Shown here in pieces: positions 8,962 to 58,925 of a stretch of DNA of 64,000 nt. This DNA comes from Saururus chinensis (taxonomy: Eukaryota > Streptophyta > Magnoliopsida > Piperales > Saururaceae). The translations under genes were made by a program, and so were the position numbers. Under the pieces are notes generated by a model. It saw only the letters and a program-made list of their open reading frames with translations, was not told where the DNA came from and did no database searches. How positions within the stretch are numbered: position 1 is the first letter of the stretch; every line of letters begins with the position of its first letter. The stretch is from the NCBI GenBank assembly GCA_035235625.1, contig CP141140.1, positions 13,350,685 through 13,414,684 on the forward strand, read 5' to 3'.

Positions 8962-11900
8962 ATGGCTCTTCTTGTGGGGATTAGACCTCTCTTTTCCCAG
9001 GCTATTGTATTCTTTGGATGTTTTCTAGTTCTGTGCTGTAGTTCTACAACAGCGCAAAGTGGATCAGGTGAAGCAGAAGCACTCCTAAGGTGGAAGTCCA
9101 GCTTCATTATCGAGCCTCCTCTGTTACGCTCTTGGACTTCACAAATCAATGGATCTGGCAACATGGAGAGCCCATGCAATTGGTTTGGAATTTCATGCAA
9201 CAAAGAAGGACGAGTGGCCAAAATCGTTCTGACCAATTCAAGCTTACAAGGTAACCTTGACAAGCTCAACTTCCCTGCTTTGACAGAACTCACTTTTCTC
9301 GACCTGTCTTTCAATAATCTCTCTGGAGTTTTGCCTCCTTCAATCGGGGATATTACCCAGATCAGGGTGCTCAACATTTCTAATAACTCATTAACAGGAG
9401 AATTAGCACCTTCTTTTTTCACAAACTGGACCCAGCTTATCTCTCTTGAGCTGCAGTACAATTATCTCAGTGGAAAAATTCCGTCAGAGATTGGGCAACT
9501 TAAAAATTTGCAGTTCTTGCGGCTCTACAACAATCAATTCAATGGTTCAATACCTCAAGAAATAGGAAATCTAACCAATCTCATTAGATTAAGGTTGAGT
9601 ATAAACAGTCTCAGCGGTGAAATTCCTCCAAGTTTAGGAAATTGCGTCAATACAACCTACCTAGTTTTGTATGGGAATCACTTGTCTGGTTCAATACCCG
9701 CCACCCTTGGTAACATGAGCAAGCTTACGCTGTTGTACCTGTACGATAACCAGTTGTCTGGTTCAATTCCTCCTGAACTTGGAAAATTAGTTAACATGGA
9801 CAATTTAGACCTCTCGAGCAATCAACTTTCTGGTTCCATCCCATCCAGTTTAGGGAACATGGAAGTGCTTGAGATTTTGTATTTGTTTGAAAATCAGCTT
9901 TCAGGGCCAATTCCTCCACAAATAGGAAATCTAAAAAATTTAACCCAGATGAGCGTGCAAGAGAACAAGCTCAATGGTTCAATACCTGCTACCTTTGGCA
10001 ACTTAACAAGCCTTACTGATCTTCGTCTTTTTCAGAATCAATTATCAGGCACCATGCCTCTAGAAATGTCCAATCTCATATACCTGTCTGTCTTTCAAGT
10101 GGGTGACAACAATCTGTCAGGTTCTTTACCCGACCAAATTTGTCAAGGCGGAAAGCTTACCTACATAGCCACATACAACAATCAGTTCACAGGTTCCATC
10201 CCAAGAAGCTTGAAAAACTGCACAACCTTGGTAAGGGTCCGGCTAGAGGGAAACAAGTTTACAGGGAACATTTCAGAAGGCTTTGGTGTGTACCCAAATC
10301 TCAGCTACATTGACTTGAGCAACAACAACTTGTATGGTGAGCTCTTGGCAAACTGGGGGGAGTCTTCGAATTTGACAAAACTACAAATGTCTGGGAACCG
10401 AATCAGAAGCCAGATACCGGCTGAGTTTGGGAAGTTGACCAAATTGCAGGAGCTTGGCATTTCTTCAAACAATTTATGGGGGGAAATCCCGATGGAGTTG
10501 GGGAACCTCATTTCTCTACTCATTCTACGTCTAAATGGGAACAAACTTACTGGTGCCATACCTCCAGAATTTGGAAAGTTATCTAATTTACAGATTCTCG
10601 ACCTTTCCTCAAACGAATTAAGTGGGCAGATTCCAACTGAATTGGAAGGGTGCTCCAAGCTTCTGTCGCTGAATTTGAGCAAAAATGCTCTGAGCGGGCC
10701 GATCCCATATCAGATTGGAAACTTTATATATCTCCAGATTCTCCTAGATTTGAGCAGCAACTCTTTAACAGGAGAAATCCCTTCACAGCTGGGGAAGCTG
10801 AACAAATTGGAACTTCTGAACCTCTCCCGCAACCTTCTCTCCGGGTCCATCCCAACTTCTTTTGATGGGCTGGACAGTCTTATAGCGATCGATTTGTCAC
10901 ATAATGATTTGGAGGGTCCTCTTCCTGACATCATATCCTTGAACGAAGCTTCAATAGAGGGGAACAGAGGCCTCTGCGGCAACCTACAAGGCCTTCCACC
11001 ATGCAATTCCACAAGGAGGGAAAAAGATAGCAGTAACCGCAAACAAGTTATTTTGATCGTCGCTCCTCTATTGGGTGCGTTGCTCCTTCTCCTCATAGCG
11101 GGTGGAGTTTGTGTAAGCTTCCATTACTGGAGAAGGCAGAAATATGTACCCAACAATTCATTCGAAGTATGGAATCTTGGTATGAAGATAGCATATCAAG
11201 ACATCATCAAAGCAACAGAAAATTTCAGCGACAGGTACTTGATGGGAAGCGGAGGGTTTGGGAAAGTTTACAGAGCAGAGCTGCCATTCGGGCAGGTAGT
11301 AGCAGTGAAGAAGCTCCACCAAATGGAAGAAAACGAGCTGCTCGACAGAAGCAGCTTCCAGAACGAAGTGAAGGCTCTGATGGAGATCCGCCACCGCAAT
11401 GTGGTGAAGCTATACGGGTACTGCTCCAACCCTTCGGTGACGCTGCTGGTGTGCAAGTACATGGAGAAGGGGAGCTTGGCTGACGTGCTGAGGAGCAATG
11501 AAGAAGCAATGGAGTTCGACTGGGCCAGGAGGCTGAACGCGGTGAGGGGAATTGCCCACGCCTTGGCTTACATGCACCATTATTGCACCCCGCCCATCAT
11601 TCATCGAGACATCTCGAGTGACAACGTCTTGCTTGATTCTGAGTATGAGGTGGGCGTCTCCGACTTCGGCACCTCCAAGCTGCTAAACCCCGACTCCTCC
11701 AACTGGACCTCCCTCGCAGGCACCTATGGATATGTCGCCCCAGGTAAGCTAGCTTAAATTTTACTTCAGCAACCGCTTCAATTAGACTCTAAATGACGAA
11801 ATAAGCTTAATGCTTGGGATTTTCGCTGTGGTTCAGAGCTCGCTTACACGATGAGAGTGAACGAGAAGTGCGACGTCTACAGCTTCGGGGTGGTGGCTAT

Positions 11901-12204
11901 GGAGATCATGATGGGAACGCATCCTGGGCAGCTGCTCAGCTCTCTGTCTGCGAATGCGACCCACGGTGGGGATGCAGTGTTGTTGAAGGACGTGCTAGAC
12001 CAGCGCCTCCGACCGCCGTCGGAAGAGATGAGCAGCGACGTTGTTATGGTGGTTGTTATGGCGTGCATGTGCTTGAGCAGCAATCCTGAGACGCGACCGA
12101 CCATGGAGCATGTGGCTCGAGAGTTGGCTGCCGGTGGCAAGCCTTTGTCTAAGCCCTTCCAAATGATTAGTTTGACTCAGCTAATGCATCATTTTAAGAC
12201 GTGA
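8962..12204 (+). CDS. LRR receptor-like kinase, MIK2-like (subfamily XII-type)
   Basis: Exons 8962-11743 and 11837-12204 give 1049 aa. The 93 bp GT-AG intron is phase 1, and joining restores GYVAPELAYTM, the usual kinase text after the activation loop. Order: signal peptide (about 1-31); N-terminal LRR cap with ALLRWKSSF and CNWFGISC; 23 LRRs of 24 aa (about 95-650); a short juxtamembrane stretch; one membrane helix at about 695-718; a Ser/Thr kinase domain from about 755. Kinase motifs are intact: GSGGFGKVY loop (about 760), VAVKK lysine (about 782), [10 protein letters not shown] (about 880, an RD kinase) and SDFGTSK (about 900). It would act at the plasma membrane, sensing an extracellular ligand. 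Architecture and kinase text resemble Arabidopsis MIK2 and its plant-wide relatives. The ligand cannot be read from sequence. No damage seen, so probably functional. Confidence 0.93.
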
Positions 12205-14575: not shown

Positions 14576-14582
14576 TATATAA
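14576..14582 (+). promoter_or_regulatory. TATA box of peptide gene A
   Basis: TATATAA, 64 bp before the end of the leader at ATG 14646. The surrounding CTCTATATAAGGCTGGAG is conserved at the same place in the duplicate gene C. Confidence 0.65.
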
Positions 14583-14645: not shown

Positions 14646-15205
14646 ATGCGTAGACCTTATTTTCTTGTGATTCTGTTAATTTCAGCTGTTCTACTCGTCT
14701 CCTCCTCACAAGGTAATAAAGTGTAAACACATTTCCGGCTCGTGTTACATCTATCCTAAAGTCTTATAATTTGTTAAGAAAAAAGTGTCGTTTGATAATT
14801 TACCATTTATGTAGGATTAAGAAGAGCAGAGATGGCAACCAAGGCTGAATATGGACGAGAAGTTTCAGCGGTCCGTGTTCCTACTCTTAACGTTTTGTTG
14901 GATAATCTTTTATGTCAGCTTTAATTTTAGGAAAAAATTAGCTAGAGCTAGAAAAAGTGAGCTGAAGCCCCTGGCCGTCAGCCATGATCTATTATGGGCT
15001 CCAGCTTACTAGCCCGCAGTACTAAGACATTCTCTTAATTTTAACACTGGTGTTGGCAAAAAAAATTACTAAAATAATCACATGCATGTGAATGCTTTAG
15101 GTACACTTTGAGGAACTACGGGACATGGAGGAATATAAATCGTTGGACTATGATCCTCCCAGTCGCAACCCTCCTAGTGGAGGGACGCCACCTGCTGGAA
15201 ACTAG
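14646..15205 (+). CDS. PSY-like secreted peptide precursor, gene A (75 aa)
   Basis: Exons 14646-14712, 14815-14870 and 15101-15205; introns of 102 bp (phase 1) and 230 bp (phase 0), all GT-AG. The product has a signal peptide (MRRPYFLVILLISAVLLVSS), a short basic/acidic propeptide (LRRAEMATKAEY) and an acidic stretch leading to LDYDPPSRNPPSGGTPP at the C-terminus. The core DYxxPxxNP matches plant peptides containing sulfated tyrosine (PSY) and the bacterial mimic RaxX. The Asp before Tyr is what tyrosylprotein sulfotransferase needs. The His usual two residues after NP is missing. By family knowledge such peptides are secreted, sulfated and read by LRR receptor kinases to promote growth. The leader, splice sites and conserved gene plan support the model. 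The PSY assignment rests on a short motif. Confidence 0.78.
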
Positions 15206-15534
15206 CACGGAGGTAGCCCACAGACCAATGGAACACTGAACCTGGAGAAGAAAGATTTTTGGCTATATATATACATATATATATGCAGATCCAATAACGG
15301 CTGTAGCTTATAAGAATTTGCATTTCACAGTTTTTGCGATGCAATAATAACATTGAGACTTATGAATATATTTTAATACCACTTTTCAGTAATAAGTTTT
15401 TTCAGTTAATTATGGTATTTATTATTACAAACTCTATGTCATTGGTGAAGTTATGTTCTTCTTAAGGACAAATAAAATTAATAATGCACGGGGTATTTCA
15501 CTTCGTAGAGAAATTAGTTAATCTTTACTATATA

Positions 15535-15667
15535 CCCCCTCTATCCTAGTTTAATAGACTGCATACATTTGAAAACCAAAATGTATTAAAATTAGTTTGT
15601 TTTGGTTTTCAAATGCAAACTATTATAGTATACAAAAAAATAAACTATTATAGTGGGGTAGGGGGAG
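15535..15667. mobile_element. Stowaway-like MITE
   Basis: A 133 bp palindromic element starting CCCCCTCTATCCTAGTTTAA and ending in its near reverse complement (TATAGTGGGGTAGGGGGAG), flanked by TA on both sides as Stowaway insertions are. Inner parts also fold back on each other. Confidence 0.7.
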
Positions 15668-15671
15668 TATC

Positions 15672-15770
15672 GTACTCCTTTTGTCTTAAATTAATAGCTT
15701 CATTTAGTTTTTTTAAAATGAACTAATTTTAGTTCATTTTGAAAAAAAAATAAAGCTTTTAATGTAAGAG
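15672..15770. mobile_element. Truncated Stowaway-like MITE (same family as 61796-61898)
   Basis: Starts TACTCCTTTTGTCTTAAATT and shares TTAAATTAATAGCT and TTTTAGTTCAT with the better preserved copy at 61796-61898. It adjoins the previous MITE directly. The right end is degraded. Confidence 0.5.
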
Positions 15771-18668
15771 AGAAAATATAATTTTAGGTTTATTAACACA
15801 ACCAACTTAATTTCTTCGTCTGTCTAATTTGCACTTTGTACATAAATTTGTGCCCCTAATGACTCACAAGTACAAACATAAGCTCAGCATTGCGTACTAT
15901 ATATTGTTGTCTCTATTTGGTAAATGATTAATGTAGAAGGAGATAAAACGTAAACGGGAACAAATGTTAAAATTGCCCTCTAGTACTCATAAGATTCCTT
16001 AGAAACTTATAGAATAAGTTACCACACATAAATGTTGATTATTGTGCTTGCTCGTTTAAAAGATCATGATCACTAGTGAATGAATATGTGTCCCTTAAGG
16101 ATTCTCTCTCCATTGTAACCGTGTCAATTTTCTCATATTAAATGTCTTATTTATAAAAAAAAATAAATTTTTTGAAGAAAGTGAAAAACATCTTAGACTA
16201 AAAAATGCCAAACTTTAATTAAACTCTAACTTAGATTCTCATGCTCCTCCTATTAATGGTAAGAAGTATATTAGAAGTTTTCTACTTGGAAGGAGTATAT
16301 AACACTTAATGAATGATAAATAGTTTTTTAATAAAAACTTATTATAGGATGGAGGGAGTATGATTTTGTGCGCTATTAGTTTGGACGTAATAATATAGCT
16401 TAGCATTTTTTGTTGATTGTACAAGTATTATAATTTTATGTAATCGTTTTATCTAAATTCATTTGCAAGAAATTATGTAATTTATTACTTATTAGAGCTT
16501 GAAACATATTTCGTACTACAGTGTGTAGATGCAAATTTGTTTGTGCCTTGTGAGTTGTGATCCAGGTAGACCAAGTGAACAAACAATCAACACTTGTTCG
16601 TATTCCATATATGGTTCGCATAGAGACGTCTTTGGCTTCTATACATAAACCTTCCATAGATATAGTTTTAGACGCATCTAGGTCAAGCTCCGTGAACTTA
16701 AGTCAATGACCATGGTATGTAGAAGTCTTAACATGGTTTATAAAGGCCCAATAAGGTATTTATGTTTAATATAACCTGGGGCCCGGTTCCATATAAAGCC
16801 TAGTGTACTATTCTAATAACTTTATGTACTATGTCAAGGATTCGGTTATGAAAGCATTTTCCTACAAGTTTTTAGTCACCATAATCTACAAAAAGAAATT
16901 TTTATAAAATAATTAAAAGAACACGTCTATTCCCCCCCCAAAAAATGCTTAGAGACCCCATCACAAAAAAATAACATGCATTCTTTTTACAACTCAGTAC
17001 CCCCCACACCCCCCCTATAAGTTTACTCATGCCACCCCAAATCTTTTGGAGGCTTTTTGATGGGTGGTACCCTCCGCCAAATAAAATTGATTTGAACGAA
17101 GGCCTTAAGTCCTCACCAAATTAAGATATATAATTTGTTATGATATGATGGTTTTTGATATATTCTGTTTTGATCTGATTTGCTTTGAAATACTTTATTT
17201 TGATTTGATATGCTTCGATATGATCTAAGATAATCTGTTATGGTCAGAAGAAATTTAATATGATTTGATGTGATCCAGTTTGTCTCTGTTGTGCGTTCTG
17301 CTATGCTTTGTAAGAGAGCAGGATATGTGATTCCGCTGAGTTATTAACTTCTGTTCTACTTCGATGATTTATGAGATTTCTGTCTGACTCTGAATGATTT
17401 ATTTGAATATAAAGTTATATGTATTTTAATGTATATGATTTTGTGATGCTTGATGTATATAATAGCCGTTAAGCACAACTACATTAAGATCCAATCGTAT
17501 TAGAATAATATTATATATATTATCTAATATATACATAGGTAACCAATGGTATAATAGTATTAGACCGATCCAAATTAATTATAAAATTATGTTTATTCTG
17601 ACTTACGTGCAACGAAGTGCTCAAACTCCGTAGTATGTAGAATAACGTTACGACTCTTGTACATAGAGTCTATGGCTCTTGGTTAGTCTCATTTTAATTT
17701 TTTTATTTAGTTTAATAAACTCCAATTTTATTTTCTGAATGACTCCAATTCAGGTTGGTATTCCTGGTCTGGGCTGTTTATGCGACAATTTTTTTTTACT
17801 TTTTAACTATAAGTGTCCAAGCCCTAAGGACCCACCTAGATAGCCGACTAGCCTCTTAACCATGTGTCAATTACCTTGGTACCTGGAATGCTTTCGCACC
17901 ACAACACACCGAATACGTTGAAGGTATAGCCTTTGTGGATGGCCGGCCGCCGGCCGGAGTGGAGATTCGGACATAATTAAAGAGTTAGGAAACTCAATTA
18001 ATTAATCTCATTGATGAAGATGTGCACATTTATATTTACTACTTTGACGCCAAGTTTCATATAGAAATAACCTACAGGTGCAAAGCCGTGGGTTTACGAG
18101 GCATGTTTGCTGAAAGCACGGTGATTTGAGTTTGAAGGAGACTGGTCGTATAAACATTTTGTCCTAGAATTGGTAATGTAATCTTAACAACAGCCATTTT
18201 TAAAGAGCATTTATTTTGTGGGATATAAAACCGGATTTGTTTTAGGTATGCACTTCAACTCCATAAACATTTGTATGTGATGACCACTTGAAAGGGAAAG
18301 ACTAATAGAAAGTGTCTACCCAATCAGAATGTCATGCACCTACTACACGACCACATAACAAAAAGACAGTTGAAACTTTGAATCAGTTTTGCTTCTTTTT
18401 ATATTTGAAAAAATAAATATAAGTTTGGGTTTATATGCGTCAGCAGGAGCCTCCGTATCATTGGCCATCAAATATTTTCTGGGAAGGGGGACAAAAAACC
18501 TATCTAAATAATGTCTGCCGTCCGATCAAAATCCAACGGCCAATAATGCTGCTTAGCCTCACACTATCATGAGTCCGGGCTGGACTCTATTTCGACAGTT
18601 CTTTAAAATTGAGAGCTTCTTCATCAAATATAAAATTGAGAGCTTCACCTACAACGCGTAATACGCCC

Positions 18669-18674
18669 TATAAA
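18669..18674 (+). promoter_or_regulatory. TATA box of peptide gene B
   Basis: TATAAA about 70 bp upstream of the gene B ATG, at the same distance as in the sister genes. Confidence 0.55.
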
Positions 18675-18741
18675 TTCTAACCGTTCATCTCTACTTCAAA
18701 AACGATAAAGAGACATCCCCTTAGCTAGAAGGTAAACAAAT

Positions 18742-19189
18742 ATGGGTTGCTCTCATTCTCTTCTACTCTTCGCGATTTCAGCCCTGTTAGTTCTCACTTC
18801 CACACAAGGTAAAACGTATCCTACATCTAGCAATTTCGTCGACATGTTCATCTTCCTGATGGATCCCTCCCTTGTCCCTTCCACTTTACAGGACTAAAAA
18901 GAATGGAGGCGTCAGTAGGACATCCAGTGGGATTACCAGAGGTAGAAATTTTTACTTTCTTTTCACAATTTAAGATATATATTGATGTTAACTAGGGTCA
19001 TGTCGTTTTATATGGTTGTCTCTCCAGGTGAATCTTGAGGATAAAAGCTCACGGGAAGTGTATAGATCGGACTATAATGATCCCTGTAATAACATAACCC
19101 CTACGGTACCAACTCCACATGAAGGAGGTCCCCATAGAGAAAAAATTACTCCTGGAGTAGGCAAGCGTGGAGTCTGTTATGGAAACTGA
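18742..19189 (+). CDS. PSY-like secreted peptide precursor, gene B (92 aa, divergent)
   Basis: Exons 18742-18808, 18892-18941 and 19028-19189; introns of 83 bp (phase 1) and 86 bp (phase 0), GT-AG. Exon 1 has the same 67 bp length as genes A and C and encodes a signal peptide (MGCSHSLLLFAISALLVLTS). Exon 2 gives GLKRMEASVGHPVGLPE. Exon 3 gives VNLEDKSSREVYRSDYNDPCNN, then a tail about 20 residues longer than in the sisters, rich in Pro, Gly and basic residues and ending KRGVCYGN. The core keeps Asp-Tyr, Pro at +5 and Asn at +8 (counting Asp as 1), but Pro +9 is replaced by Ile, and two Cys appear (one in the core, one near the end). It may make a different ligand, or be drifting. Secreted precursor by structure; ligand identity is inference. 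Confidence 0.68.
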
Positions 19190-20950
19190 ACTCGTGGAAA
19201 CATGGCTGCAATATTCTTGTGAAGTGCGTCTTCTCGCGCCTGATTTACAGTTGTTTATTACACTCTGAAGTCTGAAATCCTCAGAGTGAGCTTTTTGTTT
19301 CCTAATAATATTAATTAGTTTTCTCAAATCTAATAATTTTTAGTAGCTGGCTTACATTTGCATTGATAAAAGATTGTAATTTCGTGATGGTCTCAGTTCG
19401 AGCAAAGATACATTATCTGTATCCCAACTGGTTAGGTTGTCGAGGGTTGGAATAGTGTCGATCAAGCCTTCAAATCCGCTTATTACCATTCCATTCAGCA
19501 CAAAAAAAAAAACGAACAGTATCACTGTTCAATCCATTCAATGTCAGTAAAATCTTAACTTGATTCAAATCCTCTAAGATGTATTTCGTTGGTGGCGCCG
19601 CAATTCAATGTTCCTTACAAATTTCATCATTTGCAAGTACCTCTCTTGGTATTTTACGTCTTCAAGTATGTTCTGAGCTCTGAAGAATGCACTGCTGATC
19701 CGGCATATGACCAGACTAACCTGAAATTCTATGATTGGGCGTAATTGCATGTTTTTTTATACTATCTAGATTTTTCAACTCTGCCTTCGGACTTGAGGAT
19801 CGGTGTGACCACAAAGGCACAAACAGGTGCATGTTAGCTAAGATAGTGGGTACTTGGCTCTATGACTTCCAACAAACATGTGAAGTGTTAAGGAAGTTGT
19901 TCACGGACATATATAATGGAATTAATTTAAAGAACACGTTTATATGGAACCCAAAAAACCCTTAAATATTCCGTTTCTTATTTACCTTAATTGAAAATTT
20001 TTAAATCACTCGTATACCTTAGAATATAATGAATTTTTACCTCCTTCACTTTACCTATTCCTCCTTCCTTCTCCGGTGTCGGCAGTTGGTATCGCCGGCC
20101 GGTAGCCTCTGTGCATGGCTGCTGCAGCCGAAGTCGTGGCCTTTTTGGCTGCACAGACTGCAGCCTAGCTATGACAGCCAAGGTCAGATATGGCCTGCCT
20201 TGGCGCTGGTCATGGCAGCCAAGCCAGCTAGAACCAGATTGGCCTTGGCCTTGCTACCAGATGCCACCACGGCCAATGCCAAGGCAGAGTTGGCCACCAC
20301 TGTTAGAGCTGCGATCAAGACCAGTTTGGTTGCGGCAACCAGAGCTAGGACCAGTCTGACCCTGGTCTCTGCTCCTGGTAGCACGACGGCAACTCTTCGG
20401 CATCGTCGGTTGTTAATGAGGAGGAAGAAAAAGAAAAAGTGGTGGGGGAGGAGCTACGACGGCCGAAGACGCTGTCTTCGCCGTCGCATGAGCTGTTGCT
20501 GTCGCCAATGCTGTCGTTGCGTCGAAGCTGGCAACGAGATGTTGATTTTAGTTGGGTGATGGGTGAGATAAATAATGTGGTTTTTAGGGTTAGGAGAGCA
20601 AAGAAAAAAATATTGGATATTTTTTGTAAAATGTGATACCGAGGGGTTGTTCTAATTTAAATTTCAATGGTTAATAGTAAATTAGTTGATGGTGGATTTT
20701 ATCTCTTGCTGCTGCACGTGGACGTAGGCTATGCCGAACCATGTAAAGTTTGTCTTCTCCTCTTCTCTTGCCGAGTTCTCTTCTTTGATTTATTTTTGCA
20801 CTGGATCAAATTCATATACTGGTTGTTTGGTACTAAAGAGTCTTGTACAACTTTAGTTTCACCAGCTTAAGCGGGTTAAAAGAACAGTAATTTCTAGTTA
20901 AAAATCTAGTTTAGGGGAAACTAGAATCTAACTCACTTTAGAAGGGTCAC
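19190..20950. other. Intergenic DNA between peptide genes B and C
   Basis: 19690-19880 repeats parts of 12485-12600 and 13850-13880. 20060-20560 is a GC-rich island (about 500 bp) with overlapping open frames rich in Ala, Arg and Leu on both strands. It resembles no family I know and may be captured or low-complexity sequence. No gene is called. Confidence 0.5.
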
Positions 20951-21408
20951 TTACTAGTCTAGTGGCTGATCCTTTTTCAAACTACATGGCCCTTATTCCA
21001 CATAAACAGGATCCATTGTCCTTATCAGTCTCAAAATTCAAGGACAGACTGAAATAATGCTTACTAAAGCAACGTTTTTCTCGTTGCTTTAATTTATCAT
21101 TTGAGTCAGAACATGGAAAATAATTGCAATTTTTGACTTGACGAGTCCGGTTAGTATATGCTTGGCACATCTGGGGTACGTGGCACATTGCGGGCCATCG
21201 GATCTTAATCCAACCGTGCACGTAAAATGGGGGCAGGTGGGTTTGGATCTCGATCTTGAATCGTTCTCCTTGCTCAATAGTTTATTGTTAGCAGCATTCC
21301 TGCACACTACTCCCTTTCAAAGTTTCAAAATTGGCCATCAATATATAGGAGTAGTAGCTTTGAACAAGTCAAGGATCTGAAACTTGCACAGCAAGCTAAT
21401 CAACCCTC

Positions 21409-21415
21409 TATATAA
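21409..21415 (+). promoter_or_regulatory. TATA box of peptide gene C
   Basis: TATATAA in the context CTCTATATAAGGCTGGAG, which is identical in gene A. Lies 70-76 bp before the ATG at 21485. Confidence 0.65.
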
Positions 21416-21484
21416 GGCTGGAGTAATGGATGCACCACCACAAAGAGGCTTGAAGGAATTCATTATCAAAGAAGACAATCGAAA

Positions 21485-21925
21485 ATGGTTAGACTTTATT
21501 TTCTTGCGATTTTGTTGATTTCAGCTGTTCTACTCATCTCCTCCTCACACGGTAAAGCACATTTTCAGCTTTTGTTTCCTCTATCGTACTTTTGTCTCAA
21601 TTTGGAAACATAGATTCAGACGGATAATTTTCTTTGTATGTAGGATTAAGAAGAGCAGAGATGGCAGCCAAGGCTGGATATAGAGTAGATGTTTCATCGG
21701 TTAGTACACAGTAGTGTTCCAATTCTTCAACGTTCTGTTGAATTTCCCTTTTATGTCAGCTTTTAGAACTGTTGTTGGCGACAAAATTTTAGTAAAATAA
21801 TCACTTGTATGTGAATGCTTTAGGTGAACTCTGAGGAAGGACGGGACTTGAAGGAAAACATATGGTTGGATTATGATCCTCCTCATCGCAACCCTCCTAG
21901 TGGAGTGACGCCACCTGCAATCTAG
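21485..21925 (+). CDS. PSY-like secreted peptide precursor, gene C (74 aa)
   Basis: Exons 21485-21551, 21644-21699 and 21824-21925; introns of 92 bp (phase 1) and 124 bp (phase 0), GT-AG. Signal peptide MVRLYFLAILLISAVLLISS, propeptide LRRAEMAAKAGYRVDVSS, then VNSEEGRDLKENIW and the core LDYDPPHRNPPSGVTPPAI. It differs from gene A in the core only by His for Ser at position 6 and Val for Gly at 13, while the middle region (exon 3 start) is much less alike. That is the pattern expected of a peptide precursor in which only the mature ligand and signal are held. Asp-Tyr, Pro5, Asn8 and Pro9 of the PSY core are present. Probably functional: all splice sites, frame and TATA box are intact. Confidence 0.78.
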
Positions 21926-22249
21926 AATGGACTTAGCCCAAAGAACTGAACAGGAGACTAAAAAGTTCTTGCTCTCCTTCCGTCTCATAAAAAAAAATCA
22001 GGCTCTAGCGTCCAAATTTTGAAATTTTCTTGTAAAAGTTTGAATGCAATAATAATACTGAGACTTTGGAATATATTTCCGTACCATATAACGATATGCA
22101 TATCATATTCTAAACATGATCAGCGAACTTGTCCACCATATTCTTGTACAAAACAGGAATTAATACAAGAGTTTTTTCTATATTACTTGCTCGAGATACA
22201 AATACTCCATTTTTTTAAAATTTTAACACTTAATCCTATATGACCGGGT

Positions 22250-22815
22250 TTACAATAAATATACTTAGATAGTGGAAGGAAATCAACTATAAGCATGCAT
22301 ATGTATACAAACCAGTGTAAAGTGGTTGCCAGAATTGGTTTACTGTAACCCCTGATCGGATTCAAATTGCGTAGCAATAATTTTCTTCGCTGGTGTCTTT
22401 GATCTAAGGAAAATAATGCAAAATAGAAGAGATTTTTTTTACCACTTTGAGTCAAACAATGAAGGGGAACACTCAGCAGCATAATGGGACCATTTGACGT
22501 ACAAAACTTGAACACAGAAAAAGCTTTTTATCTATCTTGGGCATCAAGCAGGATGCTTCAATTGAGCCCAAAGGTAGACGTTAGAGGAAGAGTTTTTTAT
22601 GCTCCTTGTATATGACGAGCCTAGTATAAGAAACGTTTAAAGAGATATGATATTTAAGATCGATGATACATTTATGAATACATGTTAACATTTATGTGTC
22701 ATTGATCTCAAAGATGAACGGCTTCCAGCGTTCCTCATGTTAGACTCATGGTAAATAAGAGCATATAAAACGCTTCTCAAATTATTATTTTTATAAGTAT
22801 GAGCGCTCTCGACCC
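22250..22815. repeat. Flanking duplicate shared with 24585-25020
   Basis: Shares long stretches with 24585-25020: AAGCATGCATATGTATACAA, TTGGTTTACTGTAA, TTTGAGTCAAACAATGAAGG, GGGCATCAAGCAGGATGCTT and ATGAGCGCTCT, in the same order. About 60 extra bp near 22590-22650 interrupt this copy. The partner forms the region between gene D and the HNH gene, so the two peptide genes C and D were duplicated with some downstream DNA. Confidence 0.8.
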
Positions 22816-23984
22816 TATTATTTAATAATGTAAATACCTAAGGTAGAGAAATTAGAAAGAAATTCTCTTAAAATTCTTTTTTTTTTATAATTTAATTTTA
22901 TTTAATAGTTTTTTATTAGATTTTTATAGTTTTTGACGTGTATCTAATAAAGTTATAATACTCTCTCCAACTTTCACTTTCTCAAATAACATTGAAAATA
23001 TTTAATATCTATTTATAATATTACAATGTATCTATATTCTTTATGTTTGGCCCATGTAAAAATTATATATAAAATATTAATTAAAAAATAATTAACAAAA
23101 AAATAGAGTTACTTGCATACCAAACTCAACTCAACTAAGGTAAAATTTTAACTTAATTAACAAATAGGGTCGGGTCATAACTTAACTTAATTTAAATATG
23201 AGCCCAGACATGATTCCCGGCCCATGAGGCGGATACCTGTCAAATGGAAATTGAACTCACAGTGACATAACCTTGGCCGCAATGTTCTTACGAAGTTTTT
23301 GCCTGTTTAGCCTGAATCATGATTAGACGGCAGCGATGATTTCTTCAGTACCAGCTTTTGTTTTCAATAAATCAAGAATTTTCTGAGTTGTGTTTTTTTT
23401 TTTCCAATTTCCAACAATAATCATGGCCAAATTTGAGTTGGCTGGCTCAAATTTTCATCAATGAAAGATTGCTGCGAGAAGCCAAGATGCATTCATTATT
23501 TAGTATCCAAGATGTCCGCTGCCCGAGCTACAAGTTTCAGCATATGGTCGAGTGGGTGTCATGAAAATTTAAGCAAATAGCTCGGCAGTGGCCTTCAGTT
23601 AATTAACTTAATCCGGCCGGTCCACTTTCGCTACTCCTCTTGGTCCTAACTCTGTGGGACCTTTTGTGGGCCCGCTGCTAACGAATTAGCAAACACCACC
23701 CTTGTGGGACCATGAACTCTTCCATTGAATTTGTTGTTGCCTGTTGAATTGACTTGCGAGTTGTTTCACGGAAGTCCACATTTGAATCGGCCCGGCAGCA
23801 TTTTTACTGGTGAAGATGTTCTTATTATGGAAAGCCTCGTCCACATCGTGGCCAGGTTAAGGTTGAATTTGAACGTCTAGCTACTTAATTACAATTTAAA
23901 CTTCGAAAACCATGCATTCTTTAGTCAATCCCTTCCCTGGATATTTTCTTCTCTCATTTGTTGAAACGTTCAGAAAGTTATAAG

Positions 23985-23993
23985 TATATAAAT
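23985..23993 (+). promoter_or_regulatory. TATA box of peptide gene D
   Basis: TATATAAAT, 58-66 bp before the gene D ATG; spacing as in the sister genes. Confidence 0.6.
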
Positions 23994-24050
23994 AGTTAAA
24001 TTGGGCTTACATATCTTTGAAACCTATCGCAAGTAAAAGAAGATCAGGTC

Positions 24051-24487
24051 ATGGGCAATCGTCAGTTCATTTTACTTGTTCTGATTTCAGCCTTTCTGGT
24101 CCTCCCATCTCCAGGTACAGACTCATGATCTACGTTTCTTTAATTTCCTGTCCATCTTAACTGTTCTCATTTAGATATGCATCACCTTGTTACTTCTTTC
24201 TTGAGTGTATCTACAATATTATGGCAGGATTAGCAAGGAAAGCGATGGTGTTTCGCAAAGCACATATGCTGACTATGCCAGAAGTAGGTTCTTAGTTAGG
24301 TTTACAGTTTACAGACTTTTTTTTTTTATCATTGAATTAAATGAAGCCAATCGAGGTATCATAAATGATGTCATTTTTCTTGCTTGTCTTTCAGCAGCTG
24401 AGCTCGGAGACAAATAGCTGGGTTATACAGGAATTCAGTTTGGACTACAGTGGTCCACAGAACAATCAGAGCCCCGGCCATCGCTAA
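24051..24487 (+). CDS. PSY-like secreted peptide precursor, gene D (69-70 aa)
   Basis: Exons 24051-24114, 24228-24283 and 24395-24487; introns of 113 bp (phase 1) and about 111 bp (phase 0). Signal peptide MGNRQFILLVLISAFLVLPS, propeptide GLARKAMVFRKAHMLTMPE, then LSSETNSWVIQEF and the C-terminal core SLDYSGPQNNQSPGHR. Asp-Tyr, Pro5 and Asn8 of the PSY core are kept, and the ending resembles the GxNxRHxP style of many PSY-like peptides more than genes A and C do. The last acceptor reads CAGCAG, so splicing could start exon 3 at 24395 or 24398; both keep frame and differ by one Gln. The second choice makes the spacing to Asp-Tyr equal to genes A and C. Same gene plan as its three neighbours. 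Confidence 0.72.
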
Positions 24488-24584
24488 TCGGCCTATCTTG
24501 CTTCTTTTCTTATGTAAAACTTAATAATAAGAAGGCTCACTTTGTATGACTTCGTCACTGCCTCGTACGCGCTATAAATGTAAT

Positions 24585-25020
24585 CGGATGGTGGAAGGAA
24601 ATCAACTAGAAGCATGCATATGTATACAAACCAGTGTAAAATGGTTACCAGAATTGGTTTACTGTAAACCCTGATCGGATTCAAATTGCATAGCAATAAT
24701 TTTCTTCTCTGGTGCCTTTGATCTAAGGAAAATAACGCAATAAGATCCTGCTTTCTCGTTGCCAAATAGAAGAGATTTTTTTTTACCACTTTGAGTCAAA
24801 CAATGAAGGGGAACACTCAACTTCATAATGGGACCATTTGAGGTACAAAATTTGAACACGGATAAAGCTTTTTATTTATCTTGGGCATCAAGCAGGATGC
24901 TTCAATTGATATTTAAGATCGTGGTGCATTCATGAATGTACGTTAACATCTGTGTGCCGTTGATCTCAAAGATAAATGGCTCCCGGCGTTCCTCCCACAT
25001 TTTTTTTTACAGGCATGAGC
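24585..25020. repeat. Flanking duplicate shared with 22250-22815
   Basis: Partner of 22250-22815. It forms the upstream flank of the HNH gene, so that gene's promoter region may have been copied to the far side of peptide gene D. Weak antisense open frames here are not conserved in one frame between the two copies. Confidence 0.8.
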
Positions 25021-32365: not shown

Positions 32366-35041
32366 ATGCCCGAGACAATCGGCATTCTCCGGCTCATTCC
32401 TTTCGAGAGATTCAGATTCCTCCGAGCGAATCTCGTTAACGTTGTGAGGAGGTACAGAGAGCAGTTTGAGATTGTAGGAGGCTTTCTCATTGCTTTTTGG
32501 GCTGCACTCGTCATGTTGATCAGCTTGTCCGTAGTGTTCGTGTATACTTTTTACCGTCAACCACATCATTTTGTAGTGGGAAAAGACGGACAAGCTGATT
32601 TTAGGACCGTCTCCGAGGCAGTGGACGCGGCGCCCCACTTCAGCACGGGTCCCTTCTACATCCACATCTTGGCCGGACGGTACGAGGAGAACGTTCGGGT
32701 GTGGAAGAACAAGACCAACCTGGTCTTCGTCGGCAAGGGCATGAGCATGACAACACTCTCTTCCAACCGCAGTGAGGCCGACGGGTTTTTGGCTGATAAA
32801 ACCGCAACCCTCTGTAAGTTTTCTCTTTCCAGATGTTAATAGCATCTTAGACTTCATAATCCTGCCTATGTACCTCCTGTCCTTGCTTTCATGGATTGCT
32901 GATGGCGTCTTGCTCAGTTTTGGTGGTGCTTTTGTGATATACTCCCTCTGTCCCGAAATAAGCGTCCTATTTATTTTTCCAAAATTAGTTCATTCTGGAA
33001 AACTAAATCGGACACTTATTTCGGGAACAAGGGAGTATTTTATATTTCTGTCAAGTTGTTATTATCTTCAGTTCGTTTTCTTTAGATAGTGATTTGTACT
33101 TTGATGAGGTCTTAATGTTTTAATCTAATAAATGTATATTTGTTGACAGAGTTTAATACACGACTATAGAGCCCTGACCAGATTCTCATTTTCAATTTCT
33201 TTATCTTAAAAAAATTACAGCTGCAATTGTTTTAATGTGTACTTCGGTTTCCTTTTGTTTTAATGTCTTATTCTTTGGTACTCTCTATAATTTGTAAATA
33301 GGGCTTTCCTGTAGATATGAATAGTTTTAAGAATGAAAACTACTTAAAACTGTGACGAATGACATTTTAAAGTTTTCTTTTGGCTGAACTGGTTCTGCTT
33401 GTTATCCTCATTTTCAGGTTTGTTCTTTTTGATAAATTTAAAGTAATTGAAGATTTTCATTCAACTCTTTTTCTGGTTAAAGAATCTTTGTTTATTTACT
33501 TTCGCAACCGGCATGGAGTTGGGGGTACAAGAACAACGACTCCGGTAGATTCTGTTTGTTTTTTGCCCTCTCTAAACTATTATGAGAGAAGGCATTTAGG
33601 CAACTGTATATCGCTACACTCCCCTCGTCCTCGTACAGAAAAGTTCCCATCATTGCCTATATCTAATTTCCTGTTTTGTACGGTAAATGTTCATTGTAGT
33701 AAATGCCTATATCTAGTTTCCTTTCTTCTTCTTTTTTCAATTTAAAAGTTTGGTTTTCATTATTGAGTATATTGCAACTAATGGTATCGGGATTGTGAAA
33801 TGAATTGTACGAGAGATATAAATGAATTTGAGTACTGATCTCTGTACAGTTCTAATCTATCCAATTTTTCTTTATGCTTTGCGAGTTGGTTTTAGTTCCA
33901 GAATACACCTATCTTTTCCCCTCTAAATTTATAACTACTTTGTATTTGCCTTAAAGATCATCTTTCTTATCTTTCAAAGCATGGTGACATTGTTCTGAAA
34001 CTAGGAGTGATGTGGTTCAACATTGAATACGCGGCAATTACTTGTCTTTCCCATCCAGTCCAAGTTTTTTATGTGTAGCGATATATATTATGATCGTTCT
34101 AGCATGGTTTTATGTTTTCATTACTGTCAGCACTTCACTATGAGTTTATGATGTGTATGTAAACAAATTATGTTCTTTCTAGCATGGTTTTATGTTTGCA
34201 TGCAGACTGTCAGAACTTGATAAGATATTAGGGACGTCGTAAGCTGGTAGCACGCAACTATTTCTTTCACTCGATCGTTCCAGTTCTATATTTGCAATAC
34301 TGTCATTGATTCGTGGGAGGCACTGCACTAATCAACCGTTTTGTTCTACTGGTTTCAGTTGTAGAAGGGGATGGGTTCGTCGCCACGTACATGACTATCC
34401 AGAACACGGCGGCACCGGGCAAGGGTTATGCGTTGGCTGTGAATAACATGTCGCCACACTCCGCCTTCTACCGGGTTGGCCTGTCCAGCTACCAAGGCAC
34501 TCTTAATGCAAAGGAGGGATTGCAATACTACAGAGAGTGCGACATACATGGGGCAGTGGATGTGGTGCTCGGAAAAGCAAGTGCCACATTTCCAAACTGC
34601 ACCCTAAATGTTCAACCCCCTCTTCTGGGCCATGATGTAGTCCTTACGGCCCAGGGAGGTAGGAATAAGACGTCAGGATTTGTATTCCCCAACGCCACCA
34701 TAACAAGCCAAGGGAGCATACCAAAGGGGACTAGGGTGTACCTTGGCCGAGCATTGGGCACCTACTCTAGGGTGATGTTCATTTGGAGCTACTTGGCTGA
34801 ATTTGTGAGCCCTGAGGGATGGATGGTTGGCCCTGCAAAGGTTCCTGTTCCCAAGGTCGACTATGGGGAATATGGGAATGAAGGCCCCGGGTCTGACATG
34901 AAGAAGCGACTCAGATGGCCTGGAATTAGAAACCTTTCTTCTCAGGAGGCATCTGAATTCGCTAGTGTAGATTTTGTTCAGGGCCACGAATGGTTACCAA
35001 CTATCGGGGTACCTCCTATTGTCCTTGATGACTTAGATTAG
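32366..35041 (+). CDS. Pectinesterase-like protein with N-terminal membrane anchor (376 aa)
   Basis: Exons 32366-32813 and 34359-35041 join in phase 1 to 376 aa. A basic N-terminus is followed by one hydrophobic helix (about 36-62), then a pectinesterase fold: VVGKDGQADFRTVSEAVDAA, AGRYEENV, NLVFVGKGM, GDGFVATYMTIQNTA, GLSSYQGTL, DIHGAVDVVLG and VYLGRAL. Pectinesterases remove methyl esters from wall homogalacturonan. Of the active-site set, one Asp (217, in DVVLG), Gln195 and Arg279 are kept. The Asp of the usual YQDTL is Gly196, the Gln before it in the family is Tyr173, and LGRPW has become LGRAL. Catalysis therefore looks lost or altered, although the frame is intact. There is no fused inhibitor pro-region; a separate inhibitor gene faces it 760 bp downstream. 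The ATG follows the GC-richer start of homology; an upstream in-frame ATG at 32282 would add 28 aa. Confidence 0.85.
32942..33035. mobile_element. Stowaway MITE in the pectinesterase-like intron
   Basis: A 94 bp element with ends CTCCCTCTGTCCCGAAATAA and its near reverse complement ending CGGGAACAAGGGAG, flanked by TA at 32940-32941 and 33036-33037. Text typical of Stowaway. Lies in intron 1 (32814-34358). Confidence 0.85.
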
Positions 35042-35423
35042 CATGTTCTTCTTGTTCATAATTTTTCAGTCTCAAAATAATAGTTCTAGTTGGCAAAAAA
35101 ATAATTTATTTTCCTTTCAAATAGATATGGATTTCACTGTTATGTAATATTATTTTTTTAAATATAACTATTAATACGAAAAAGAGGAAATATTATATTT
35201 AAATTTAAATTTGCATACTCTTAGCCGTGAATTAGTTATATATAGAAATTGAAAATAAAAGTTGATAGTTAGCACACAAATGTAATATCCATGACATCAT
35301 CAATGAAATTTTAATTGAAAAAATGGTATGTTCATCAAATATAGTGAGCATGAATTATTTAGATAATGGATCCATTATTAGGATAAAAATCTTCCTGCTT
35401 TCATGGTTATTATATATAGTACT

Positions 35424-35620
35424 CTTTCTCTATTAAATTAATAGATCTATTTGACAAAACAAATATATTCTATATTAATAGCTTTATTTTGTTAAATTTA
35501 AATGATTTGGTACTTATTAAAGAGTATCATAAATCTATTTTTCATTCTCTTAGATGTAGGCTTCACCATTAAATAAAAATTACTATTTTTTTATAGGTAG
35601 CTATTAATATGTGACAGAAG
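35424..35620. mobile_element. MITE-like element, family shared with 12597-12790
   Basis: Opens TACTCTTTCTCTATTAAATT and shares the same ordered stretches with 12597-12790. Lies between the pectinesterase-like and inhibitor genes of copy 1. No counterpart was noticed in block copy 2. Confidence 0.5.
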
Positions 35621-35801
35621 AAGTTTAAAAAATACACACTTATAATTATAAAATTGTTGATTATCAAAATAAAGCTGCGAATAACAAGATGGATTTATTC
35701 AAACGGAAATGATCCTTCCAACACAACACCAATCTGCATCCCAACAAAATTGTACATTGTTTTTATGAGGCGCACCTTTTTGGTGCTCAAGAAAATCAAT
35801 G

Positions 35802-36335
35802 TTAAGAAATGTATAAAGCCATGGCTGCAGCAATGTTGCAAAGTTCTGCTACAATTTCATTTTGCTGGGCAATTGGCGACTGTCTCGGGGGATTTTCCTT
35901 GAAGTGTTCTTCACAATCGTCAGCAGACGTAGTAGCGAATCCAAAATCAGGAGCGGCCGTTGCCAAATCACCCGACTTGAACTCCCTTATGGCTCTTTCG
36001 GCAAAGTCTATCCCGCCATCATAATCATCGTAGCACGCATCCAAGTCTCTCAACATGATGGGGTCTTTCTCTTGCTTTTGCAACTCAGAGATGTGATTCA
36101 AGCCAGCCGTCATGTTTTTCAGACACAGTTCACCAGCAATCCCTACGAGCCCCCGATAATTTGCGCTGAAACTCCGAGGGTCCGACTTCAAGGCCGAAAT
36201 GCACAGTTGAACGTAGTTAGCATGCCGACATGCTTCTTCAATGGTTCCTTCATCCATCTCGCCGATGGAAGCAAAGCTAGCATGGGGAAAAAATACGAGG
36301 GCAAAAGATACAATGAGTAAGGAGATATTGGCCAT
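35802..36335 (-). CDS. Pectin methylesterase/invertase inhibitor (PMEI), copy 1 (177 aa)
   Basis: Single-exon gene read on the minus strand. Signal peptide 1-22 (MANISLLIVSFALVFFPHAS...), then the four-helix PMEI domain. The family's two disulfide pairs are present as Cys36/Cys45 in EEACRHANYVQLC and Cys101/Cys141 in LDACYDDYD and ADDCEEHF; Cys71 and Cys166 are extra. Typical length for a stand-alone inhibitor. Secreted inhibitors of this fold bind pectinesterase or invertase one to one in the wall; which target applies cannot be told here. It faces the pectinesterase-like gene tail to tail, 760 bp apart. A TATA-like CTATAAG lies about 50 bp upstream of its ATG (near 36380-36388, minus strand). 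The 5' half is almost identical to copy 2, the 3' half much less so. Confidence 0.9.
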   Translation of the reverse strand: MANISLLIVSFALVFFPHASFASIGEMDEGTIEEACRHANYVQLCISALKSDPRSFSANYRGLVGIAGELCLKNMTAGLNHISELQKQEKDPIMLRDLDACYDDYDGGIDFAERAIREFKSGDLATAAPDFGFATTSADDCEEHFKENPPRQSPIAQQNEIVAELCNIAAAMALYIS

Positions 36336-36692
36336 GCCTATTGATCAGTGTCACGAGGGAGAACTTGTTGACGGGCCCTACTTATAGATTTATGCCACAA
36401 GTTCAATGCTGCCAAAAAAGAAGGTGGGTGCCCCAAAAGGCCAACATAATCTTCCTCAACAATGCAAGATTACGAAGTTTAGTTGCAAATCCAAAATATG
36501 CATGAAAATCTTCCCTGTCCCGACGTTTATGGGAACGCCAGTCTCGCCTTACCTGGAAAAAACATATTAATTTGGCAATGTCATTAAGTGGTAGCATCAT
36601 GTGTCTGAATGCTGTTGATTATGTGCCGATTGCGATCTGAGAAAGATGAAAAATAACATTACTGACTTAACCATTGTAACTTGTAAGCATAT

Positions 36693-57196: not shown

Positions 57197-57870
57197 TGAT
57201 GTAGGCGGAATATAATTGAATCAAAAGGAGAATCGACTTAGTGGCATTTCGTCGAACAGTTTCCTATTAGCAGAAAAGTGAGGGGTAAAAATGTCTTTCA
57301 GTATTGATGTTTAAATCGTGACCATTGGGTGAATCTAATGATTCCTAGTTAAGGGGTAAAATCATCCATTACTAACTCGTGAGCTCATCGGAACTGTTGA
57401 TATAATTGGATGGCGGAAGATTAAGGGCATAATGGACAAATTACAACGCAATTAGGTAGTTAATTTGGTTAATCATTTTCAACCTTCAGCTCGGAGCTGG
57501 GTTTCGAGAAAACTTTCGTGATTATTTGGAACACATTAATCGGATCATTTGTCCCAACTGGAATCCACATCAGATGAGCAAAGTAGTATAAATAGATTGA
57601 TTGTAATTGAACTCGGTGGTTGTTAATTCTGAAAGTATTCAGTGTATTGAAGCTCTGTAAATGTTCTATGCGAAGAACTTGGAGACAACTGCTACTGCTG
57701 TTCGGTTGAATCATCGAGGTTTGAGTTTAATTCCTCCTGATTCATGTGATTTCTTTAGTTGTATTTGATTTCTGAAAATAGTGAAGAGTTTATCTCCCAA
57801 ATTTGCTTGTTTTTGAGTGATCCAACATTTCCGGAACTGGTTTATTTGATTCCTACGAACGGCTCTATCA
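57197..57870 (+). repeat. 3' LTR of element 2
   Basis: 674 bp partner of 51972-52644, preceded by a purine-rich AGCAAGGGAG tract and followed by the CCAAG target duplication and the resumed pectinesterase exon. Confidence 0.92.
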
Positions 57871-58465
57871 CCAAGGCACCCTTAAAGCAAAGGAGGGATT
57901 GCAATACTACAGTCTACAGAGAGTGTGACATACATGGGGCAGTGGATGTGGTGCTTGGAAAAGCAAGTGCCACATTTCCAAACTGCACCCTAAATGTTCA
58001 ACCCCCTCTTCTAGGCCATGATGTAGTCCTTACTGCCAGGGAGGTAGGAATGGGACGTCAGGATTTTTATTCCCCAACGCCACCATAACAAGCCAATGGA
58101 GCACACCAAAGGGGAATAGGGTATACCTTGGCCGAGCATTGGGCACCTACTCTAGGGTGATGTTCATTAGGAGCTACTTGGCTGAATTTGTGAGCCCTGA
58201 GGGATGGATGGTTGGCCCTGCAAAGGTTCCTATTCCCAAGGTCGACTATGGGGAATATGGGAATGAAGGCCCCGGGTCTGACATGAAGAAGCGACTCAGA
58301 TGGCCTGGAATTAGAAACCTTTCTTCTCAGGAGGCATCTGAGTTCACTAGTGTAGATTTTGTTCAGGGCCACAAATGGTTTCCAACTATCGGGGTACCTC
58401 CTATTGTCCTAGATGACTTAGATTAGCATCTTTTTCTTTTTCTTTTTATATTTAGGTTTAGATTA

Positions 58466-58803: not shown

Positions 58804-58823
58804 TTAGCATGTTATTGGTCATG

Positions 58824-58925
<102 letters not shown>

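Follow-up and report, generated by a model that had tools for sequence, protein, structure and literature searches.

A tandem array of short three-exon precursor genes with a DYxxPxxN core in Saururus chinensis, and its relation to PSY-type peptides

Introduction

What kind of product is encoded by four small genes that lie one after another on the plus strand of a 64,000-nucleotide stretch (hereafter the window) of contig CP141140.1 of the Saururus chinensis genome? An earlier note on this DNA had labelled them PSY-like peptide hormone precursors. The PSY family includes AtPSY1-9, with PSYR1-3 as receptors, and RaxX is a bacterial mimic of it, a sulfated peptide of PSY type. The published PSY motif is DYXXXX[AP]NXXHXP (PMC7913133, PMC11641228), and the family criteria include an Asp-Tyr start in the second half of a precursor of 60-200 aa (PMC7913133). 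The shorter form DYxxPxxNP, by which the earlier note had characterized PSY, leaves out the family-defining H and P, and the placement of these genes has to be judged against the longer motif.

Results

Four three-exon genes in the window

We recovered all four genes (g1 to g4) where they had been described and with the cores that had been quoted, each encoding DYxxPxxN near the C-terminus (Table 1). All 8 introns were GT-AG, the first of each gene being in phase 1 and the second in phase 0. The products were 75 aa (g1), 92 aa (g2), 74 aa (g3) and 70 aa (g4) long; the lower limit of 69 aa given before needs correcting, as g4 shrinks to 69 aa only when splicing takes the downstream AG of its CAGCAG acceptor. 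The TATA[AT]A boxes, noted before as equally distant, lay 66-76 bp from the ATGs, and g2 and g3 each had a second copy further upstream. The exon 2 propeptide, previously called basic, was weakly so, with net charges of +1, 0, +2 and +3 in g1 to g4. By eye, the N-termini of the precursors present a hydrophobic core and an S-x-G cleavage-like end. As to the surroundings, a MIK2-like LRR receptor kinase gene with the same orientation as g1 precedes it by 2.4 kb, and repeat copies were found at 22255-22740 and 24574-24994 in the window.

Table 1. Exons and candidate TATA boxes of the four genes (positions in the window); signal peptides are putative.
Gene	Feature	Position	Strand	Remarks
g1	TATA box	14576..14581	+	70 bp 5' of ATG; consensus match only
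g1	exon 1	14646..14712	+	signal peptide, phase-1 donor; 88.1% identity with g3 exon 1
g1	exon 2	14815..14870	+	56 nt, propeptide, phase 1 to 0
g1	exon 3	15101..15205	+	core DYDPPSRNPPSGGTPPAGN and stop
g2	TATA box	18669..18674	+	73 bp 5' of ATG; consensus match only
g2	exon 1	18742..18808	+	signal peptide
g2	exon 2	18892..18941	+	50 nt
g2	exon 3	19028..19189	+	core DYNDPCNNITP, long tail, stop
g3	TATA box	21409..21414	+	76 bp 5' of ATG; consensus match only
g3	exon 1	21485..21551	+	signal peptide
g3	exon 2	21644..21699	+	56 nt
g3	exon 3	21824..21925	+	core DYDPPHRNPPSGVTPPAI and stop
g4	TATA box	23985..23990	+	66 bp 5' of ATG; consensus match only
g4	exon 1	24051..24114	+	signal peptide
g4	exon 2	24228..24283	+	56 nt
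g4	exon 3	24395..24487	+	CAGCAG acceptor, core DYSGPQNNQSPGHR and stop

The array extends upstream of the window

The array turned out to be larger than the four-gene cluster described earlier, since two intact genes, A and C (cores DYPDPGAN and DYDNPGNN), begin 43 and 20 kb before the first position of the window on the same strand, with a broken copy, B, between them in the same orientation. C was also recovered by whole-precursor similarity to g4 (E 8e-4). We scanned 196.6 kb for the whole gene plan, i.e. a signal-like exon 1 with a phase-1 donor, an exon 2 of 44-65 nt and a phase-0 exon 3 that encodes DY and terminates in a stop codon. Seven places fitted, all on the plus strand; six of them carried DYxxPxxN, a count that is not blind because the criteria had been loosened once a stricter version was seen to miss known members, and the seventh (C1:13322248) had DY only and no resemblance to the array members. 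In 40 block-wise dinucleotide shuffles there was no place with DYxxPxxN, and places with any DY averaged 0.4 (maximum 2); the earlier stricter scan had given 4 places with the core against 0 in 8 shuffles. Most scan places fit several exon combinations, and the combination listed first for g4 differs from the model used here.

Searches of the genome (516 Mb, 11 contigs) with g1, g2, g4 and A as queries revealed no other copy at E<=10 save chance-like matches; those inspected from the g1 search (L028, L029) and from the A search (L056-L058) were taken as chance. The g4 search was too insensitive even to list C, so these searches carry little weight against divergent copies elsewhere.

Comparison with the PSY motif

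All six intact members, of 69-92 aa, have the Asp-Tyr start in the second half of the precursor. Asn-8 was found in 6/6 members, 11/12 PSY motifs and 1/21 RGF motifs, a contrast to be read with the caveat that DYxxPxxN had been one of the grounds for selecting g1-g4 and A. Position 7 was Ala or Pro in A only (1/6, and 0/4 in the window), while His-11 and Pro-13, both found in 12/12 motifs of the PSY set, were absent from all six members; the full motif DYXXXX[AP]NXXHXP consequently fails in every one of them. The initial half of the PSY motif is fully intact in A.

We also scored the cores as PSY minus RGF, the RGF set comprising 21 motifs including CLE18 and L011 (RGF4, GLV8 and GLV9 of PMC11534595, which are not 13 long, were omitted). 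On columns 3-8 the scores were +18.2 for A, +10.0 for C, +7.2 for g2, +4.7 for g4, +0.6 for g1 and -6.3 for g3. Left-out PSY members ranged from 7.3 to 19.0 and RGF motifs from -23.1 to -2.3, which places A and C within the PSY range and g3 within that of RGF. On columns 3-10 only A attained the PSY range (g1 -6.7, g3 -13.5), and on columns 3-13 all six members lay outside both families. When g4 was aligned with one residue skipped, its score moved RGF-ward (-3.5 on columns 3-10, -10.4 on columns 3-13). An earlier score table, made without A, C and the PSY motifs of this genome, had put g1 and g3 toward RGF, g2 toward PSY, and g4 slightly toward PSY, or toward RGF with the skipped residue. The PSY-like label is partly supported, by Asn-8 and by the scores of A and C on columns 3-8, and not by His-11, Pro-13 or position 7. 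Comparing the AtPSY1 19-mer with the genome gave no match, the query being too short to be informative, and g1 exon 3 had no match among PDB sequences at E<=10.

The genome has canonical PSY genes of its own. Three (L036-L038) were found at weak E (0.065, 0.18, 0.40) and identified by their motif. L036 has exons of 58/44/105 nt with phases 1 and 0; in L037 and L038 the first intron is in phase 1 and, by eye, the middle exon (59 and 56 nt) ends in phase 0. L037 is located at C1:13274959-13275012, on the opposite strand; roughly 32 kb separate it from the first gene of the array. The array genes share with PSY a short secreted-type precursor, DY, Asn-8, Pro-5 (6/12 PSY motifs), the C-terminal position of the motif with a short tail and, partly by eye, the three-exon structure and intron phases (1, then 0) of these PSY genes. 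They differ in the residues missing at positions 7 (in all but A), 11 and 13 and in their tandem arrangement. None of the wheat PSY genes is tandem-duplicated (PMC11641228), and three introns are reported for tobacco PSY genes (PMC12153210) and for most wheat PSY genes (PMC11641228).

Comparison with RGF/GOLVEN precursors

A rival that was absent from the earlier reading came from the profile search of the products. For g1 and g3 the nearest curated profile was Pfam GLV1-2, of the RGF/GOLVEN family (g1 E 0.0026, 19.1 bits; g3 E 0.018, 16.4 bits), under its cut-off of 28.1 bits; with the signal peptide removed the values were E 0.016 and 0.065. The profile matched neither g2, g4, A nor C, and no array member exceeded a curated Pfam cut-off. 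It gave no match at E<=10 to any of the three PSY precursors of the genome, and it also misses L009A and L010A, RGF precursors of another type in the same genome.

The array could on these grounds be a divergent RGF/GOLVEN/CLEL branch lacking the C-terminal HN, with Asn-8 convergent. Such an origin would account for the GLV1-2 matches of g1 and g3, for the common DY start, and for the likeness of g1 and g3, DYDPP(S/H)RNPP, to the GLV1-like DYEPPHRKPP of L010, with which the g3 stretch DYDPPHRNPP shares 8/10 residues. Gapped g4 (DYSGPQNN-SPGHR) leans the same way and, by eye, resembles DYYGPRSHNPKHH of L009A, and g1 and g2 terminate in Asn. RGF genes, too, are known to occur as tandem duplicates (PMC8708909). 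However, Pro-10 was found in 2/6 array members against 21/21 RGF motifs and His-12 in 0/6 against 19/21, and position 13, which is N or H in 21/21 RGF motifs, is N in one array member and H in another, so the His-Asn or His-His that ends RGF peptides of 13-16 residues is missing. Besides the Asn at position 8, the g1-g3 cores depart from RGF by extending past position 13. When a profile of g1-g4 was compared with one of six RGF precursors, the probability was 7% and the alignment was limited to the signal-peptide junction; none of the array genes came up when the genome was searched for the RGF family. We consider an RGF origin unlikely, if still credible.

Gene structure was tried as a discriminator and set aside. 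The RGF gene L009A (exons 61/50/174, phases 1 and 0) at first seemed to favour RGF, but the PSY genes of the genome have the same phases, so intron phases and a short middle exon, being common to both, are not diagnostic. Of other RGF genes, five have a phase-1 intron only and L010A a phase-0 intron only.

It is distinctly unlikely, in our judgement, that the array is an independent, lineage-specific family of DY sulfopeptides, outside PSY as well as RGF, that uses the same three-exon layout for its secreted precursors. The position of all six members outside both families on columns 3-13, the lack of Pfam matches over cut-off and the genome searches that yielded no further copies would all fit it; yet A conforms exactly to PSY over the initial half of the motif, on columns 3-8 both A and C fall in the PSY range, and searches that overlooked C can say little about divergent copies.

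CIF/TWS1 peptides resemble the array in their DY start and Pro-richness and in the C-terminal Asn of g1 and g2, and Liriodendron is known to have CIF genes duplicated in tandem (PMC13074997). This candidate was rejected: by eye, only DY and scattered Pro were in common with the five motifs in PMC11534595. RaxX retains DY, N, H and P (PMC7913133), whereas the array lacks the H and the final P.

Coding constraint among the members

Between g1 and g3 we counted one in-frame indel of 3 nt in 225 aligned exon bases, whereas the introns had 7 indels over 203 aligned bases; contrary to constraint, the alignable part of intron 2 was 83.8% identical, against 83.3% for exon 3. The dN/dS was below 1 in 14/15 member pairs, and in 8/15 pairs, each with dN/dS <0.5, Fisher p was <0.05 (uncorrected, with non-independent pairs and largely saturated synonymous sites). 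The remaining 7/15 did not depart significantly from 1; between g1 and g3 the ratio was 1.21 (p 0.83), so this pair gives no sign of purifying selection.

These figures bear on whether the genes are decaying or unexpressed duplicates, evolving under relaxed constraint and no longer signalling. The broken copy B, the g1-g3 ratio together with the pairs that do not depart significantly from 1, and tails that differ among members agree with decay. Against it stand the open reading frames of all six genes, each spread over three exons with GT-AG introns and sharing one core, the single and in-frame exon indel between g1 and g3, and the eight pairs with p <0.05, and we hold decay to be improbable.

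Discussion

The gene plan, the intron phases, the shared DYxxPxxN and the frame constraint are the basis on which we lean, with moderate confidence, towards reading the array as a tandemly arranged side branch of the PSY-type sulfopeptide precursors that has lost the HxP half. Three points lower our confidence: members were selected in part by the motif, the searches of the genome lacked the sensitivity to show that copies are restricted to this locus, and gapped g4 moves RGF-ward. The earlier view of the products as secreted, probably tyrosine-sulfated precursors of DY type is supported by the plan, the conserved Asp-Tyr and the frame constraint.

Exon 1 would direct the product to the secretory pathway, and signal cleavage would fit (by eye) after the Gly, or Ala in C, that is encoded across the first intron. 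The Tyr following Asp would be sulfated by TPST in the Golgi and subtilases would cleave at the Asp-Tyr end, so that a short, mostly Pro-rich sulfopeptide might be freed into the apoplast and act on an LRR receptor kinase. Since HxP is gone and the tails differ, such peptides would probably show altered binding to PSY-type receptors, as weak agonists or competitors, or have a lineage-specific receptor. It is improbable that PSY-derived ligands without HxP act at PSYR-type receptors as natural decoys or competitors, or that they pair with a receptor co-evolving nearby, for which the MIK2-like kinase near g1 would be a candidate; if true, the array would be a genomic set of ligands tuned independently of canonical PSY.

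Genes of 70-90 codons spread over three exons may easily be overlooked, and surveys requiring DYXXXX[AP]NXXHXP would miss all six array genes. If they are expressed, PSY-type precursors would be able to multiply in tandem and to shed the HxP half, and the members would offer natural variants for asking which residues determine receptor choice and whether sulfopeptides act as competitors. Finally, the intron phases common to PSY and RGF genes in one genome hint at a common origin of the two families.

Four small genes and the array around them

Re-reading of the sequence (exons, introns, phases and core) recovered all four small genes that an earlier note had claimed. These genes, g1 to g4, share a common plan of three exons. 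Their introns are GT-AG and split the frame first in phase 1, then in phase 0; exon 1 is hydrophobic and signal-like, exon 2 is 50–56 nt long, and exon 3 carries the motif DYxxPxxN. The TATA boxes were also found at similar spacing, 66–76 bp 5' of the ATG, while the exon 2 propeptide, described as basic, is at most weakly so (net +1, 0, +2 and +3 in g1 to g4). Protein identity to g1 is 31% for g2 and 29% for g4. g1 and g3 are 83–88% identical in exons, 64% in intron 1 and 84% in intron 2 (111 alignable bases) and, by this sequence comparison, are recent duplicates.

A scan for the whole plan in the window and fetched flanks (C1:13268001-13464600, 196.6 kb) gave 7 places, all on the plus strand. 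DYxxPxxN was present in 6 of them; the seventh had DY alone and no likeness to array members. In 40 block-wise dinucleotide shuffles no DYxxPxxN place appeared (any-DY places: mean 0.4, maximum 2). The scan had been loosened after a stricter version missed known members; the stricter one found 4 places with the core vs 0 in 8 shuffles. Upstream of the window lie two further intact members, A and C, and a broken copy, B. C was also recovered by whole-precursor similarity to g4 (E 8e-4), and A by its motif, with a weak match to g1 confined to exon 1 (E 0.55). Similarity search and plan scan found no array member in the 50 kb 3' of the window. Genome-wide protein searches with g1, g4, g2 and A gave nothing beyond the array locus except 5 weak matches, which we read as chance; these searches were insensitive, C not being listed with g4 as query, so divergent copies may exist elsewhere.

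Positions of array members, related loci and neighbouring features (window or contig coordinates)
Feature	Position	Strand	Description
A	C1:13307451-13307897	+	78 aa, DYPDPGANTNGRNGAILSPPPPG, exons 67/56/114, phases 1 then 0
B, broken copy	~C1:13328180		exon 1 out of frame, DY lost (by eye)
C	C1:13330386-13330814	+	69 aa, DYDNPGNNPSPGRKH, exons 64/56/90, phases 1 then 0
g1/g2/g3/g4	window 14646-24487	+	75/92/74/70 aa
PSY exon-1-like match	C1:13270441-13270367	-	second match of L037/L038 type (E 0.016), ~5 kb from L037; last exon not found in fetched flank DNA
L009, L019 (RGF)	C4:4212423, C8:34139090		dissimilar genes paired in tandem, or else alternative last exons; DYYGPRSHNPKHH adjoins DYSSARRKPPIHN, DYYEPRTHPPSHN adjoins DYEPPHRKPPIHN
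L011-L014 (GLV-type RGF)	C11:18546294-18612274	all on one strand	4 genes in 66 kb, ending DYTP(S/T)RK(K/R)(T/K)PIHN; L012 from last exon only
L017 (RGF-like core)	C4:27293899-27293970		DYAHVRRRRPIHN, then KGILGGP, then stop; His-Asn thus not C-terminal
LRR receptor kinase gene	window 8962-11743 + 11837-12204	+	2.4 kb upstream of g1
Two-block repeat	window 22255-22736, 24574-24994		3' of g3 and 3' of g4; blocks 86% and 83% identical
Duplicated block	window 34491-36692, 57870-60114		
PMEI/invertase-inhibitor genes	window 35802-36335, 59225-59758	-	one in each duplicated block
Retrotransposon-like reading frames	window 37616-41822, 53436-56286	-, +	

Coding constraint

Between g1 and g3 we counted 1 indel, in-frame, per 225 aligned exon bases vs 7 per 203 intron bases. 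Among the 15 pairs of the six array genes, dN/dS was below 1 in 14, and Fisher p was < 0.05 in 8 (A-C, A-g1, A-g3, A-g4, C-g1, C-g2, C-g3 and g2-g4), although the pairs are not independent, the p values are nominal and synonymous sites are at or near saturation in most pairs. The remaining 7 pairs included g1-g3 (1.21, p 0.83), g4-C (0.76, p 0.39) and g1-g4 (0.61, p 0.19). Together, the indel contrast and the dN/dS results suggest that the reading frame is constrained; purifying selection is seen in roughly half the pairs, with no sign of it in the young pair g1-g3.

PSY and RGF motifs compared

The published PSY criterion is given as DYXXXX[AP]NXXHXP (PMC7913133, PMC11641228). Counting from the D of DY, we set the 6 array motifs against 12 of PSY type (9 from Arabidopsis, 3 of this genome's own) and 21 of RGF type (12 published, 9 of this genome's own). 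The published motifs came from PMC11534595 and PMC8708909; 3 listed RGF/GLV motifs of a length other than 13 were excluded. The array agrees with this criterion at Asn-8 (array 6/6, PSY 11/12, RGF 1/21) and departs from it at His-11 (0/6, 12/12, 1/21) and Pro-13 (array 0/6, PSY 12/12), together called HxP. Of the RGF residues, His-12 was seen in 0/6 array vs 19/21 RGF motifs, and Pro-10 in 2/6 vs 21/21.

PSY minus RGF motif scores, with ranges of left-out reference members
Columns	A	C	g2	g4	g1	g3	PSY range	RGF range
3-8	+18.2	+10.0	+7.2	+4.7	+0.6	-6.3	7.3 to 19.0	-23.1 to -2.3
3-10	+19.0	+10.4	+8.4	+5.9	-6.7	-13.5	14.6 to 23.7	-30.3 to -9.5
3-13	+12.7	+11.6	+14.9	+2.6	-8.0	-13.4	25.3 to 41.6	-48.8 to -21.3

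Over columns 3-13 the scores miss both ranges, so all six members stand between PSY and RGF. With one residue skipped, g4 scored -3.5 (columns 3-10) and -10.4 (columns 3-13). All these scores are indications only, given small sets, kinship among the array genes and their selection partly on the motif itself.

A possible link to RGF came from g1 and g3, which matched the Pfam GLV1-2 profile at 19.1 bits (E 0.0026) and 16.4 bits (E 0.018), both below the cut-off of 28.1 bits, and at 16.6 and 14.6 bits with the signal peptide removed. The profile did not match g2 or g4. Among the controls it likewise missed 3 PSY precursors of this genome, A and C, and also L009A and L010A, RGF precursors of another type; on L014, a GLV-type RGF, it scored 41.6 bits. 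Its genome search listed 8 places above the cut-off and 2 below, with the array absent among them. The g3 motif DYDPPHRNPP differs from DYEPPHRKPP of L010 at 2 of 10 positions. When a profile of g1-g4 was aligned to one of six RGF precursors, the match had a probability of 7% and spanned 14 columns around the signal-peptide junction.

Gene structure in the two families

Three canonical PSY genes (L036-L038) were found by query at weak E (0.065, 0.18 and 0.40) and recognised by the full motif. L036 has exons of 58/44/105 (phases 1, 0); in L037 and L038 the first intron is of phase 1, and the middle exons, 59 and 56 nt long with a phase 0 end, were read by eye as the script demanded a stronger donor. 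Among RGF genes, L009A has exons of 61/50/174 (phases 1, 0), L011 and L013-L016 a single phase-1 intron and L010A a single phase-0 intron; the comparison was confined to fully modelled genes, which excludes L012, L017 and the second gene of both L009 and L010. The plan is thus common to both families and offers no choice between them, and we dropped it as a discriminator. Three introns are reported for tobacco PSY genes (PMC12153210) and most wheat ones (PMC11641228), at odds with the two introns of the plan seen here.

L037 (DYPGIGANNRHTP), on the strand opposite to A, precedes it by ~32 kb; this closeness, a single case, is suggestive of a common locus for the array and a canonical PSY gene.

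Origin and novelty

The likeliest account is that the array descends from a PSY-type precursor. A, which keeps DYxxPxAN, would be nearest the ancestor, followed by C and g4, with g1 and g3 the most changed, an order taken from the motif only. On this account the RGF likeness of g1 and g3 would be convergence within a Pro-rich stretch. Processing and perception are proposed by analogy with CLEL6/9 and PSY systems: PMC7162652 describes SBT6.1 cleavage, TPST sulfation and SBT3.8 trimming at Asp for CLEL6/9 (RGF) precursors, and PMC10519359 describes repression of PSYR1-3 signalling by PSYs. In RGF1 the last Asn is contacted by RGFR (PMC6749341). g1-g4 have no Asn at position 13; g1 and g2 do end in Asn, but beyond that position. 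Receptor binding would presumably change once HxP is lost, in either direction.

Tandem duplicates are reported for RGF genes of several plants (PMC8708909) and CIF genes of Liriodendron (PMC13074997); PMC11641228 found none among wheat PSY genes. Titles and abstract openings among the open-access matches listed mentioned no tandem HxP-less PSY array, which is weak evidence.

Neighbouring features

The receptor kinase gene upstream of g1, which we take to be MIK2-like, encodes LRR and kinase domains; both exons are open, and its one intron lies in the kinase part. Each copy of the duplicated block carries the 3' part of a pectinesterase, and the retrotransposon-like frames are of Ty3/gypsy type by eye.
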